Shown here one piece after another: positions 1,645 through 17,690 of a stretch of DNA of 64,000 nt (its first letter is position 1; every line of letters starts with the position of its first letter). Below the pieces are notes generated by a model. It searched no databases. It was not told the DNA's origin and saw only the letters and a program-made list of their open reading frames with translations. This DNA comes from Spiroplasma tabanidicola (lineage in GTDB: Bacteria; Bacillota_I; Bacilli_A; Mycoplasmatales; Mycoplasmataceae). Where the stretch lies: contig NZ_CP046276.1 of the NCBI RefSeq assembly GCF_009730595.1, forward strand, positions 248,001 to 312,000. The letters run 5' to 3'. The position numbers and the translations under genes are program-made.

Positions 1645-1770
1645 ATGAAACTATATGCAATCATAAATATAAGCCAATACATAATAGAAGAATGACTAGA
1701 TGTTGTTATTACTCGTACAGAATGATTTGAAAAAATTTTAGAAACTGAACAACTCCTCCTGATTGCGTAA
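1645..1770 (+). CDS. Putative leader peptide of the polyamine transport operon (41 aa)
   Basis: Short ORF with a strong AAAGGAG site 7 bases before its ATG and two UGA-Trp codons. It lies between the pot promoter and potA. Its last codons include CTC-CTC-CTG, three consecutive Leu codons that are rare in this AT-rich genome. The same bases hold CTCCTC (1753-1758), complementary to the potA ribosome-binding site GAGGAG (1814-1819). The stop codon (1768-1770) lies inside the left arm of a 7-bp hairpin. This arrangement suggests a regulatory leader whose translation controls access to the potA start. The peptide matches no family I know; that it is translated is inference. Confidence 0.55.
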
Positions 1771-11234: not shown

Positions 11235-12671
11235 CTAATAATTAAAAATAGTTAAAAAAAATACAAAAAAAGATGTCAATAAGTAATCAATTTTTCCCAA
11301 AACTTTATTTTTAGAGTTTTTGTAAAATATTCAATTAGTATATTTTCATGGACTATTTGTTTTAATTTGCTTATGTGTTTTTTGTATATCATAAACACTT
11401 TTATCTTCATAAGCTTCTTTATAAGTGGAGTTTTGTTGAACTTCAATTAAAGGCATTCATTCACTAAATGAGTTTGAATGTAATTGCCCATCAAAAGTTT
11501 CTACTACAAAAATTTTTGTTTTATTTTTATAAAAGACTGGCTCGCCATTAGAATGTGGTATATAAAATTTATTTTGGTATTTTATTGTAGAACCTTTATT
11601 AATAGTTCGTTCAAATCTTCTTGATAAATAAAAGTCAATGTTTTTATGTTCTTTAAAAATAGCAGAAGAGTTAATGATATTATTTAATTGAAGGGAAAAC
11701 TGTGAATTATATCTTTTAATATATTCATTTAAAAATGAATTTGCTTCATTTATATCTGATATATTATTTTCTTTGAGTTCCTTTGGTAGGCGATCTTGAA
11801 GTGTATTTCACAACCTTTCAATACGGCCTTTTGTTTGAGGAACACTTGAAGTTGTTAGCTTTATTCCTAAGTTATGACATAAGAATCCGTATTGTGTTAA
11901 AGAGTCAGAGTGAAGGTCTGACTCTTTTTCTTTTTGACTTCAAAATACAGTCCTTTTGTCAGTAAGTATCTCCTTTGGAATCCCATACTCTAATAAAACT
12001 TTTTTTGTTATATTGTAGTATCCCATAAGAGTTTCTTCTTTATCAAAATATAAAGCTAAAACTTTACCTGTTGCATCATCTATAAAACCATGTAAATACC
12101 ATTTCTCATTATCAACTCAGTAGTGGACTGATGCATCAGTTTGCAAGCGCTCACCAAACTCTGTTTTTCGATTTTGCATAGGATGAATATTTTCTATTGA
12201 AAGCAAAGTATTTAAATACTCTCGTTTCTCAGGTTTTTTAATATTTTCATTTTTTAATAAGTTAGTAATTTTTTGTTTAATCATTTTTTTAGTTACTTTA
12301 TGAATTCTTGGTGAATATAAATTATTCTTTTTTAATAAATTGATTAAGTAAGTATATGAAACACTTATTTGATGGTTTGATCAAAGCTTTTCTAAAAAGT
12401 GTTTATAATTATATTCTTCATATTTATTAATGTACAAGTCAATAATTTGATCACTTATTTGATGTTTTATTTTTTTATTTGATATTCTTCCAGTATTTTT
12501 GTGGATAAATGCTGTGTAACCATACTTTTTATATTTGTTAATTAATAAGTTAACATTTCTTATTGTTTGACAGATTTTTATAGCTGCAGCTTTTTTAGAT
12601 AGTTTTTCATCAATTACAGCTTTAATTATTTCCATTTTATCTTTTTCATTCATTTTTAAATATCTCCTCAT
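11235..12671 (-). CDS. Transposase, IS1202/ISNCY type, with read-through C terminus
   Basis: A 478-residue DDE transposase. An N-terminal helix-turn-helix (about residues 10-50, LSKKAAAIKICQ) precedes an integrase-like core with LQTDASVHYWVD, the strand FIDDATGKVLALYFDKEET and PQTKGRIERLWNTLQ, the family-typical third acidic region. Start ATG at 12671 follows GGGGG 8 bases upstream, as in copy 2. The expected stop is missing: copy 2 has TAG where this copy has TAC (11283-11285). The frame therefore runs through the inverted repeat and target duplication to a TAG at 11235, adding about 16 hydrophobic residues. Trp is encoded by both UGA and UGG. Confidence 0.85.
11245..11273. repeat. Left target-site duplication of IS copy 1 (29 bp)
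   Basis: A 29-base A-rich stretch that recurs without any mismatch at 12753-12781, directly outside the other end of the element. Its length agrees with the long duplications known for IS1202 (about 27 bp). Confidence 0.85.
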
Positions 12672-12752
12672 ATTTAAATCCCCCATTATAAATTATATAT
12701 TTGGGAAATTTTTATTTGTTATATATAGGGAAAATATCATATGTTATTGACA
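11274..12752 (-). mobile_element. IS1202-like (ISNCY) insertion sequence, copy 1
   Basis: A 1479-bp element bounded by imperfect inverted repeats that start TGTCAATAA and share a TTTCCC block about 20 bases in. Exact 29-bp direct repeats flank it. One transposase gene fills it. It is inserted immediately upstream of the tRNA-Ile promoter: the -35 box TTGTAA begins one base after the right-hand duplication. Copy 2 lies at 21933-23383. Intact duplication and an open transposase frame argue for recent insertion. Confidence 0.88.
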
Positions 12753-12961: not shown

Positions 12962-14779
12962 ATGGACATTAAAGAAAAAAATGATGTTGAAAAAGATGCT
13001 GTTCTTGAAACAAAACATATTATCAAGAATAACAAAATTAAAAGACGTTTTTTTGCAACAGGTAAATGATATAAAATTGCTATCACTTTAATTTTATGAT
13101 CAGTTTTACAAGAAATATTAATGGCATCAACTGATTTGATTGATAATGTTTTTGTTAACCATATTATTAGTAGTCAAGTTAAAGGGTTTGATGATCTAAC
13201 AAATTATATAAAAGGTACAGGTTGAGCAGAACATATGACCGAAGATAAACTTAATTCAGTAGGTCTTGGTAGTTTGACAGGTTATGCTCTTGATAATATA
13301 AATTATACTCCTGGGCAAATTGGAGTTAATGGTGTAAGTGCAAGTAACCAACTTTATATAATTATGTTTGCAATGGTATCAGGATTTTGTTATGGTTCTG
13401 GAATATTTAGTGCTCAATATTTTGGGGCAGGGGAATATCAAAAATTAAAACACATCACTTGTTTAAAAATGTATTTAACTTTAATAATAACAATGATTTT
13501 TGCATTAATTGGAATTCAGCAAATTACAAAATACTTTATTGGATTTACAACACATCCAGATTATGAAAAAGCAAAAGTACCATTAGATACGTATTTAACA
13601 GAAAACTCTAGTGCTCAAGAAATTAAACAAGTTTTTGAATACATTCAAAATAAAGTTTCAATTTTATCAACTGAACAAGGGGAAAAATATTATAGAATTG
13701 TTTCGCTTAGTTATCCAATTTTAACGATTAATCAAGTTGCCACAACTGCTTTAAGAGAAACAAGAAGACCATTTTATTCTTTCTTTATGTCTTCAATTTC
13801 GTTAATTGCAAATGCTTTATGTAATGTATTTTTCACAGCTCCTACTTTTATTCCAAATTATCATGGTTTTGGAGTTGTAGGAGCTGCAATTGGTACAGTA
13901 AGTTCAAGAGTTTTACAACTGGGATTTATAGTTGGATTGCTTGCTATTAAGAAGTTTGAGTTTATCCCAAGAATTAGACATTTTATAATTCCAAAATACA
14001 TTTTAAGAATATCGTTGATAAAAAGTCTACCAATTTTATTAAATGAAACATTATTCGCTTTTGGACAAGTTATGCAAGTTAAATTACGTGCGCAATACTC
14101 AGCTGACTCATTGTCGGCAAATGCAATGTATGAAACGATGCTTATGGCATTCTTCTCCCCAATGTATCATGGATTAAATGCTGGAATATCAACCTTAGTA
14201 GGAAATGAGTTGGGGGCAAAACATTTTGATGAAGCAAAATATAACGCTAAACATTTAATGAGGTTTAGCTTCATGATTGCTTGTGTATTTTTGATATTAT
14301 TTTCAGGATTGTCTTGAGTTATTCCAAAACTAATTTTTCCAAACACAACTCATGAAGGAATTAAAATTGGTGAGTGAATGGTATTTATATATTCTGCAAC
14401 TTATCCAGTTATTCTTATGAATAGTTGTGTATATTCTATTCTCAGGGCTGGGGGAAATGTTGTTCAGGCATTCTTGATGGACTCGGCATTCAATTGAGTA
14501 TTTCAAATTCCAGTATTATTTGTATTGATTTATTATAATACGTTTAACAATCCACAAGGATTTATAAATTTAGACATAATATATATTCATTTAATTGTAT
14601 GTATGTTTGAAATATTAAAATTAATTCCTTCGATGATCTTTTATTTTAGAGGTAAATGATTAACAAGTATAATTGATGAAACTAAGTTTGAACATAAAGA
14701 TAAACCAAAAGATAAAATGGATAAATCAAAAAATATTATAGTAGAAGATAAAACAGAAGAAATGAAATTAGAAAACTAG
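12962..14779 (+). CDS. MATE family efflux transporter
   Basis: A 605-residue multi-pass membrane protein of the NorM/DinF class, which exports drugs or metabolites using ion gradients. About twelve hydrophobic helices are interrupted by a hydrophilic loop near residues 70-115, longer than usual for the family (typically 440-480 residues). Motifs include LMASTDLIDNVFVN in helix 1, AQYFGAGEYQ after helix 2, and in the second half GLNAGISTLVGNELGAKHFD, the internal repeat of that motif. A hydrophilic Lys/Glu-rich tail closes it. AAAGGAG precedes the ATG. The stop codon lies inside the terminator stem. Confidence 0.9.
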
Positions 14780-14791: not shown

Positions 14792-14851
14792 CCCTATTTT
14801 GGTGCTTATTAATATATAATAAATAAAGTTTTAAAAGAAAGAGGTGGTATT

Positions 14852-14941
14852 ATGAGTATTCCTTCCGCCAGTTGGGGTAGAAAAAAAATAATTAATAACG
14901 AGAGCGCTCATAATAATGCACCCTTATTTAATAAATTTTAA
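14852..14941 (+). CDS. Putative leader peptide of the Mg2+ ATPase gene (29 aa)
   Basis: Short ORF with AGAGGTGG as ribosome-binding site; TATAAT at 14815-14820 is a likely -10 element. The peptide starts MSIPSASWGRKK. It uses codons unusual for this genome (TCC, GCC and the rare Trp codon TGG), which suggests constraint on the RNA or on the pace of translation. It ends 34 bases before the ATPase start. Enteric mgtA genes also have a regulatory leader peptide (MgtL), but there is no sequence similarity. That it is translated and regulatory is inference. Confidence 0.5.
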   Translation: MSIPSASWGRKKIINNESAHNNAPLFNKF

Positions 14942-14975
14942 AGTATGTTAAGAGCTCTCTCTAGAAAGGGAGAAC
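14900..14975 (+). promoter_or_regulatory. Alternative hairpins controlling the Mg2+ ATPase start
   Basis: TCTCTC (14956-14961) can pair with GGGAGA (14968-14973), hiding the SD of the ATPase gene in a 6-bp stem with a 6-base loop. GAGAGC (14900-14905), inside the leader ORF, can instead pair with GCTCTC (14954-14959) and free the SD. The two pairings exclude each other, so ribosome position on the leader ORF could switch ATPase translation. Confidence 0.5.
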
Positions 14976-17690
14976 ATGGAAAAATTAACAAAAAGAATTT
15001 CAAAAGAAGTAAAAAATAATACAATAAAAGACTCTCTCACTACTTTTTCTAGATTAGATCAAAAACAAGTTTTGGAAAAACTTGAAATTAAACAATTTGG
15101 TTTAAAAGATGAAGAGTTAGAAAGACAAAAACAAAAATATGGAAACAACAAGTTAGAACCAAAAAGATTTAACTTTCCTTTAGTGTTGGCAAAAGCTTTT
15201 CTAAGCCCATTTAATTTAATTTTAATTATTATTGATGTATATAGTTTTTATAATTTTTTTAGTCAAGTATCAGCTGAAAGAGACAACTTTGATTTAGTAG
15301 GAGCTTTATTAGTTTTAATAATGATTCTTTTAAGTGGATCAATAACATTTTTACAAGAAGTAAGATCATTTTTTGTTATTCGAAAAATGACATTTGATAA
15401 TAAAAAAACTTCACACATAATTAGAAACACAGATTTTGAAATCAAAACAATTGATAATGCAAACTCTGTAAAATTAATTAAAGAAGCAGAACAAATTGAC
15501 TCAGAAGAATTAGTACCTGGAGATTTAATTTATTTATCAAATGGAGATTTAATTCCTGCTGATATAAAAATTGTTTGAGCAAATAATTTATACTTAAATC
15601 AATCTTCATTAACAGGAGAGTCATTTCCAGTTTTGAAAAAAGAAGAAAATAATAAAAAAGAATATTTAGAATTTGAAAATATTTGCTTTACAGGAACTGA
15701 TGTAATTTCAGGGTCTGCTCTTGGAGTTGTTGTTACAACTGCAAAAGATACATATTTTTCAACAATTAATGATAGAGTGACAGAAAAAAGACCTAAGTCA
15801 TCATTTGATAAAGGAATAAAAAGAATAACTTTGTTATTAATTTCATTTATGTTAGCAGTTACTCCAATTGTATTTGCTGTTTTTGGTTTAAGAGCATCTG
15901 GACAAGCAGGAATTTGATTAGATGCTACTTTATTTGCGATCTCAATTGCTGTGGGATTAACTCCTGAAATGCTACCGATTATAATTACCGCAAACTTATC
16001 CAAAGGATATGCAAAAATTAAAAAACAAGAAGTACTGGTTAAGAATTTGAATGCTGTTCAAAATATGGGAGCAATTGATATTCTATGTACAGATAAAACT
16101 GGAACTATAACAAGTGGAGAAATTCATTTAGATAGAGTTATGGATTTTAACGGAAGTAAAAATGAGTATGTAAATAAAATTTTATATTTAAATAGTTATT
16201 TTCAAACAGGATTTCAAAGCCCTATAGATCAAGCGGTTTTATTAACAGAAAAATTTGAAAAACCATTTGTTGAAGAATATACAAAAGAGTGAGAAGTACC
16301 ATTTGATTTCAACCGTAAAATGTTATCAGTTATTTTATCAAAAAATGAAGAAAAAGAAATTTTTACAAAAGGGGCTATTGAAGAAGTAATGGCTGTATGT
16401 AATCGTGTATCAATTCAAGGAGAAATTGTACCAATTACAGAATTACATAAAGAAAAAATTAGAAATAGAGTTAAAGATTTAAACAAAGATGGTTATAGAG
16501 TTGTTGCAATTGCTCACAATCATTTAGAAGACGAAGATATTGAAGAAGATTTAGTATTTCTAGGATTTGCTACATTCTTTGATGAACCAAAAGCAACTTC
16601 AAAAGAAATTATTAAAACTTTAAAAACAAGAGGTATTGATACAAAAATACTAACTGGAGATAGCGAAATCATTACAAGAGCAATTTGTAAAAAGGTTGAT
16701 TTTAAAATTACAAAAATTTATACAGGAAAAGAAATTGAAGAAATGAGCGAAACTCAATTGCAAAGAGCTGTAATGGATGCAAATGTTTTTGTTAAGTTAA
16801 GCCCTTTACACAAATCATTAATTATTGCAACCTTAAAAGCTAATGGTCATGTTGTTGGATTTATGGGTGATGGAATAAATGATGCTCCCGTTTTAAGAAA
16901 CTCAGATGTTGCTATTTCATTTATAGATGCTTCAAATATTGCTCAAGATGCAGCTGATATTATTTTAGTAAATGATTCATTAATGGTAATTGAAACAGCT
17001 GTTCATGAAGGAAGATCAAGTTTAGCAAATATTTTAAAATATATTAAAGTTACAATTGCTTCTAACTTTGGAAATGTATTAAGTGTATTAGTGGCTTTAT
17101 TCTTAACAAATGTTGAACCAATGCAACCAATTCATTTATTATTACAAAACTTATTATATGACATAGTTATGTTTGCCTTTATTTTTGATAAAGTAGATAA
17201 AAAATTCACTGACTCACCAAGACCGCTGCGAACTAAAAATATAATATGGTTTACCATCATAAACGGTCCGGTGAGCTCCATATTTGATATATCAACATTC
17301 TTAGTTTTATTATTTGCGTTTAAAAATCAAGTTGGAGTTCCGTTTGGAATGAATCAAGATAAAGAAGCTTTAAGTCCAGATAGTATAGCGACATTTAATG
17401 CTTCATGATTTTTAGTTGGTTTAATGACTCAAACTGCTGTTATGCAAATGTATCGAACTGAAAAAGTACCATTTATACAATCAAACGCATCGTGACAAGT
17501 AAATGTTTCTACAGCATTTGTTTGTTCTATGGCAGTAATTGTGCCTTATACTCCAATTAATAGTCTTGTTAAAATGAGTCAACCTCCACTAGCATTCTTA
17601 CCTATTGGAATTGGATTTGTACTAATGTATGTGATATTAGCACAATGTGTAAAAATGTTATATATTAAAAGATTTAAAGAATGATTATAA
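14976..17690 (+). CDS. mgtA: Magnesium-translocating P-type ATPase
   Basis: A 904-residue P3B-type cation pump of the plasma membrane. Visible in order: the N-terminal cation-ATPase domain (LERQKQKYGNNKLEPKR), paired helices, the actuator loop LTGESFPV, helix 4 with VGLTPEMLPII, the phosphorylation motif CTDKTGTIT (aspartyl phosphate), FTKGA in the nucleotide domain, LTGDS, and the hinge MGDGINDAPVL. The ending with helices 5-10 is complete. VGLTPEMLPMIVT-type helix 4 is characteristic of MgtA/MgtB importers. GGGAG precedes the ATG and is in a hairpin. Trp is UGA throughout. Confidence 0.93.

Follow-up and report, generated by a model that had tools for sequence, protein, structure and literature searches.

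The Mg2+-translocating ATPase gene mgtA of Spiroplasma tabanidicola is preceded by a real and conserved translational attenuator, which is best read as a Mg2+-responsive device of Mollicutes, with Mg2+ as its presumed signal and a presumed stall of the ribosome on the N-terminal peptide motif MSIPS. The leader is conserved among relatives, two of its three helices co-vary across genera and the third does so more weakly, a peptide motif keeps a fixed position, and the computed access to the mgtA start depends on where a ribosome stands on the leader. It is probable that mgtA is switched on by early failure of ribosomes on this leader, low Mg2+ being the most likely cause.

The window, that is, the whole stretch of 64,000 nucleotides that was analysed, lies in a 1.28 Mb Mollicute genome and was read with genetic code 4. 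The mgtA product scores above the curated cut-off of the MgtA family (TIGR01524), and the 29-codon leader open reading frame (ORF) that the first-pass annotation had placed in front of this gene is indeed there. The 5' neighbour is a gene for a MATE-family transporter, which ends at 14779, and the -10 box, the leader ORF and the mgtA ribosome-binding site (RBS) all lie between it and mgtA. The mapped parts, including Shine-Dalgarno (SD) sequences and four pairing arms, are as follows.

14815..14820, plus strand: -10 promoter box TATAAT; the transcript is predicted to start a few bases downstream.
14838..14848, plus strand: leader SD, AAAGAGGTGGT, an extended complement to the 16S rRNA 3' end.
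14839..14861, plus strand: arm 1, made of the leader SD, the start codon and codons 2-4; pairs with arm 2, with co-variation.
14852..14941, plus strand: leader ORF, ATG, 29 codons plus TAA, MSIPSASWGRKKIINNESAHNNAPLFNKF; 34 nt 5' of the mgtA ATG at 14976.
14858..14866, plus strand: conserved codons 3-5, Ile-Pro-Ser.
14900..14925, plus strand: arm 2, late leader codons 17-25, common to helices 1:2 and 2:3.
14943..14961, plus strand: arm 3, right after the leader stop; its partner would be arm 2 (ON) or arm 4 (OFF).
14946..14990, plus strand: helix 3:4, a hairpin over the mgtA SD and start, formed by CTCTCTC/GGGAG plus TGTTAA/TTAACA.
14966..14973, plus strand: mgtA SD, AAGGGAGA, which is arm 4 (anti-SD duplex, -10.7).
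14900-14905, 14954-14959, 14956-14961 and 14968-14973: the short segments GAGAGC, GCTCTC, TCTCTC and GGGAGA, respectively.
14976..17690, plus strand: mgtA, Mg2+-translocating P-type ATPase, 904 aa (code 4); TIGR01524 equivalog, 851 bits against a cut-off of 611.

Of 62 loci scanned, 60 have a TANAAT box 5' of the leader start, mostly 29-41 nt away. Promoters of Mesoplasma florum are described as TAWAAT with a partial TGN extension (PMC7745072). A generic scan for -35/-10 elements and terminators listed nothing at the expected place, including the TATAAT box at 14815..14820. The leader SD, which had been called good, proves to be exceptional: its duplex with the 16S 3' end (GGATCACCTCCTTTCT, present in the genome) has an energy of -16.6 kcal/mol, compared with a mean of -8.6 and a strongest value of -14.1 for 24 genes of the window. 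A cmscan of the window returned tRNAs only, with no match to an Rfam cis-regulatory family, the M-box or the enteric Mg sensor.

A gene for a related ATPase was found in every one of the 60 genomes of the family that were searched. Among the best 30 loci, which are the closest ones, 29 have a leader ORF 5' of mgtA, the exception being L033, and several mgtA loci of the family are without such a leader. The 29 close leaders have 24-32 codons, lie 17-53 nt 5' of mgtA and share the SD GAGGTGRT, and their peptides begin with MSIPS, MSLPS, MAIPS, MNIPL, MIVPL or MNVPL, that is, with the general form M-x-[ILV]-P-[SL]. Because Pro4 is kept in 29/29 leaders by three different codons (CCT, CCA and CCG), it is the amino acid itself that is conserved. 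For the same reason, namely that codon 4 varies while proline is kept, an RNA motif was rejected as the sole cause of the synonymous conservation of ATTCCTTCC, although pairing of arm 1 may account for part of the nucleotide conservation of MSIPS. A search of 320 genomes of the order for the combination of SD and M-x-[IV]-P-S gave a single match in each of 24 genomes, and all 24 matches lie, by coordinates, directly 5' of mgtA; the reversed-pattern control gave 0 in the genomes listed. A similarity search with the leader peptide beyond the genus gave matches in 3 of 60 genomes at E<=1, the third of them elsewhere in its genome.

The first-pass annotation had proposed two competing hairpins, GAGAGC/GCTCTC and TCTCTC/GGGAGA, the second of which would hide the mgtA SD. 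These segments are present and share bases 14956-14959, and the two hairpins are therefore mutually exclusive. Both belong to real helices, 2:3 and 3:4, but a stronger pairing had been missed. In helix 1:2 (14839-14861 with 14902-14925), the SD and start codon of the leader are paired with codons 17-25 of the same ORF at -20.4 kcal/mol, against -9.7 for codon-shuffled leaders (p 0.002). The element is therefore four-armed, with 1:2, 2:3 and 3:4 as possible helices. In the window, duplex 2:3 has -18.8 kcal/mol against -9.4 for shuffled leaders (p 0.002), whereas helix 3:4, which does cover the mgtA SD, has -9.4 against -7.6 and is not significant alone (p 0.20).

Co-variation among relatives was assessed by a swap test, in which each arm is paired with its own partner and with the partners of other leaders (20000 permutations). 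For 28 leaders, matched and swapped arms give -20.6 and -13.9 kcal/mol for 1:2, -16.2 and -8.2 for 2:3 and -10.1 and -7.9 for 3:4, with 0/20000 permutations in each case, counts that are not exact probabilities because the representatives are related to each other. Helix 3:4 is again the weakest, as the matched pairing is better than 90% of swaps in just 5 of the 28. The 13 leaders of the window's genus alone give 0/20000 for 1:2, 0/20000 for 2:3 and 107/20000 for 3:4. A single hairpin conserved in all leaders was rejected: arm sequences differ by clade, and the pairing alone is retained.

The swap tests (28, 12 and 13 leaders) and the position models described below (32 loci) used hand-picked representatives of 63 leaders, whose length ranges over 17-44 codons. 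Left out of this set were L033 and L089 (the same locus, with no leader ORF), L070, loci with another or no leader (L075, L077, L079, L090 and L092-L094), L086 (an 11-codon ORF, MIELPESKGIK, with an unclear mgtA start), weaker P-type ATPase matches (L087, L088 and L096-L098), and L099-L105, L108-L118, L121, L123-L125, L136 and L137.

In 12 leaders of two other families of the order (f7 and f8), 1:2 and 3:4 hold and 2:3 shows no signal as a group (10361/20000). The full four-arm model was rejected for these families because 2:3 is missing there, and the complete switch is therefore a trait of the window's family rather than of every mgtA leader of the order. The f7/f8 leaders may work by another logic; strong occlusion of the leader start by 1:2 is seen in most of these loci (L119, L120, L122, L126-L135 and L138), whose peptides include MDIPSYERS, MKKPDGERSY and MDVHLNESCSTDY. 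The mgtA copies of genus g8 (L075, L079 and L092-L094) carry a different element, with a short, often GTG-started ORF (MKLFKKDKKYYWFRN...) or what is left of this ORF, repeated TTTAGGA/TCCTAAA segments and, by reading, no acidic-proline motif.

How the leader controls access to mgtA was modelled by setting a ribosome at each codon, folding the free downstream RNA and computing the energy cost at which the mgtA RBS opens. For the window's leader, this cost is 9.0 kcal/mol for free RNA, 4.0-4.9 when the ribosome stands at codons 1-12 and 8.7-9.3 when it stands at codons 15-25. The corresponding medians over 32 loci are 8.2, 4.8-6.1 and 7.2-9.2. An early ribosome lowers the cost below that of free RNA in 29 of the 32 loci and brings no benefit in 3. 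The late-minus-early difference averages +3.26 kcal/mol and is positive in 31/32 loci, compared with +0.04 for the largest mean among 25 shuffled sets; it is practically zero in L082 and L083. A ribosome at the leader stop has mixed effects on the mgtA start. By this design, mgtA would be opened only if a ribosome initiates on the leader and fails to move beyond about codon 12. In this model, the regulatory output should be translational, and a start-to-stop change in the leader is predicted to leave mgtA OFF, at the cost of free RNA (9.0 against 4.0-4.9 kcal/mol).

In the proposed mechanism, arm 1, with the leader SD and start, would pair with arm 2, and arm 3 with arm 4, which includes the mgtA RBS, 2:3 being the alternative. 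On a leader without ribosomes, 1:2 and 3:4 would form and hide both starts (OFF). A ribosome running through the leader would cover arm 2, so that 3:4 forms and mgtA is OFF as well. If a ribosome initiates and then pauses within roughly the first 12 codons, arm 1 would be covered and arm 2 free for arm 3, and repeated drop-off and replacement on these codons would give the same state. Formation of 2:3 would then expose arm 4 and allow translation of mgtA (ON). The strength of the leader SD would suit such a device, as arm 1 could be re-occupied at once after a drop-off, so that pausing and drop-off both lead to ON. Low Mg2+ would be the most likely cause of early elongation failure, as the ribosome depends on Mg2+ for its integrity and the early residues are presumably hard to elongate: Pro4 in the window's leader type, and acidic residues and Pro12 in other genera.

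The peptides of the other genera point to a reason why the ribosome may stop early. The motif [DE]x(0-2)Px(0-2)[DE] occurs in 10 of 18 leaders taken from the family's other genera; 2000 shuffles of the peptides gave 1.85 such leaders on average and never more than 7. Proline stands at codon 12 in 11 of these 18 leaders, encoded by all four proline codons and preceded in every case by an acidic residue at codons 9-11; no more than 6 prolines ever fell in one column in 5000 shuffles. In the fold model, codon 12 is as far as a ribosome can go while the mgtA start stays easy to open; arm 2 of the ten motif-bearing leaders starts at codons 18-25. In the window's leader type the acidic-proline motif occurs in 0 of 29 leaders, and the first acidic residue of the window leader is at codon 17, so the destabilisation mechanism is invisible in its peptide. 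That MSIPS is the pause site of the window's clade, with Pro4 standing in for the acidic-proline motif, is a guess and the weakest link of the reading.

The working principle is known from Salmonella mgtQ, whereas the lineage, the peptides, the arrangement and the putative pause motif are new. In translational attenuation of the ermC type, a ribosome stalled on the leader makes 1:2/3:4 give way to 2:3, which leaves the RBS downstream accessible; the helix switch is the same as that proposed here, but the ermC stall is induced by a drug and the gene encodes a methyltransferase. For mgtQ-mgtB of Salmonella, the logic of 1:2/3:4 versus 2:3 is reported to be demonstrated experimentally and to open the mgtB RBS, with an early Asp and Glu being used and a start-to-stop change lowering mgtB translation (PMC8092293). 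The window's element resembles it in the Mg2+ P-type ATPase gene, the short ORF with a strong SD, the expected translational output and the architecture, in which 1:2/3:4 exclude 2:3, helix 3:4 hides the pump RBS in arm 4, and an early-failing ribosome would free arm 2. However, mgtQ is an ORF of 8 codons located between mgtC and mgtB, and it needs Asp2 and Glu5, whereas the window leader has 29 codons, its own promoter and an arm 1 that includes the leader SD, and is unrelated in sequence and from another phylum. Early acidic residues of the mgtQ type are absent from the window leader and present in the ten motif-bearing leaders of other genera.

In Escherichia coli MgtL, drop-off at EPDP in low Mg2+ is described as switching mgtA on, and EttA as able to retain the ribosome at this motif while Pro3 occupies the P site (PMC11282234). 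The mgtL-mgtA system of Escherichia and Salmonella is further likened to the window's element by accounts of a leader peptide with early proline and acidic residues before mgtA, two exclusive RNA structures and a stem that hides the leader SD (PMC11282234, PMC11552253). Its output, by these accounts, is Rho-dependent transcription termination, however, EPDP is absent from the window peptide, and the predicted effect of abolishing leader translation is the opposite. To our knowledge, Rho is absent from Mollicutes. The window leader contains no peptide like that of enteric mgtL, which we take to be MEPDPTP-like. The initial statement that the leader is unrelated to the enteric one thus holds for the nucleotides but not for the type of motif, and because the leaders of relatives carry acidic-proline motifs of the MgtL/MgtQ type, the physical principle may be shared. 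Titles and abstracts, within a coverage that leaves out most subscription journals, yielded no such mgtA leader for Spiroplasma, Mycoplasma or Mollicutes, and none was among the matches listed for the M-box of Mollicutes or for small ORFs and translational attenuation in Spiroplasma.

The identity of the gene product and an exchange of regulators between families support Mg2+ as the likely signal. The initial suggestion of a sensor for Mg2+ or for translation rate may hold, by inference. In a sister family of the order (f11), the M-box (RF00380), which controls genes of Mg2+ transporters, is found on mgtA in 5 of 7 first-copy loci scanned (L099-L102 and L105; 107-134 bits), with no match in L103, L104 and the second copy L106. 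The covariance model gave no match at the gathering score in the window, L004, L066, L069 and L083. The M-box differs from the leader described here in being a ligand-bound RNA with no leader peptide. Its presence on mgtA of f11 means that sister families control this gene by different regulators. The second mgtA copies of f11 genomes (L106 and L107) are preceded by a leader of 44 codons (MTDSDS...) in which 1:2 and 2:3 are significant.

The same four-arm attenuator could, at a low but appreciable probability, respond to a signal other than Mg2+, such as the supply of amino acids or tRNAs (proline, serine or isoleucine), a translation factor such as EF-P, or general initiation capacity. Such an architecture would work whatever makes the ribosome pause early, the invariance of Pro4 and the frequency of Pro12 would fit a proline sensor, and Salmonella mgtP is described as a responder to charged tRNA-Pro (PMC8092293). 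However, the prolines are mostly single and form no runs, the acidic residues that always accompany Pro12 would be superfluous for such a sensor, and mgtA of the sister family is under a Mg2+ riboswitch. It is rather improbable that the RNA senses Mg2+ directly, with high Mg2+ stabilising 1:2 and 3:4, low Mg2+ favouring 2:3 and the peptide irrelevant. Strong and co-varying helices would agree with this, as would the two Mg2+-dependent structures described for the enteric mgtA leader RNA at high and low Mg2+ (PMC11552253), but no conserved aptamer-like core was seen, no Rfam cis-regulatory family matches in the window, and conservation acts on the amino acids, with three codons used for Pro4 and four for Pro12. 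A constitutive device, in which a strongly initiated leader does no more than hold the mgtA start open or provide translational coupling, independently of any environmental signal, agrees with the very strong leader SD but is very improbable, because arm 2 has evolved to occlude the leader start too, which would be pointless for such a helper, and a ribosome at the leader stop has mixed effects.

Early failure of leader translation at low Mg2+ is thus our preferred reading, and a wider evolutionary one can be put forward tentatively, as possible but slightly short of an even chance. Mollicutes may have replaced or never acquired the M-box and evolved a ribosome-based Mg2+ sensor independently of enterobacteria. 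This sensor would act as an AND gate of leader initiation and early elongation failure. In some genera an acidic-proline motif would set the pause at codon 12, and the window's clade would have shifted it to codon 4, where M-S-I-P-S would serve as a new motif. If so, two distant phyla would independently gauge Mg2+ by the fragile translation of a short acidic or proline-containing peptide, and ribosome instability would be a Mg2+ gauge of general use and not a peculiarity of enterobacteria. Near-minimal, wall-less bacteria would be able to regulate by Mg2+ without a protein dedicated to sensing it. Dozens of natural leaders, whose pause position and RNA arms could be altered, would be at hand to test the idea, and the MSIPS type would be a candidate for a new pause or drop-off motif.

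A parallel design had also been suggested for the pot leader of the same window (1645-1770). On its own this parallel is weak (1:2, p 0.09; 2:3, p 0.10; 3:4, p 0.74), and the comparison with shuffled leaders does not establish the pot leader as a proven sister case. A 41-codon leader ORF lies upstream of potA (1645-1823), with an SD (GGAGTAATAAC) able to pair with GTTATTACTC in the leader, and the potA start is most open with a ribosome near the leader end; if real, the pot leader follows a logic different from that of the mgtA leader. Elsewhere in the window, on the minus strand at 11235-12686, a 483-aa ORF resembles, by eye, an insertion-sequence transposase with an rve-like core.
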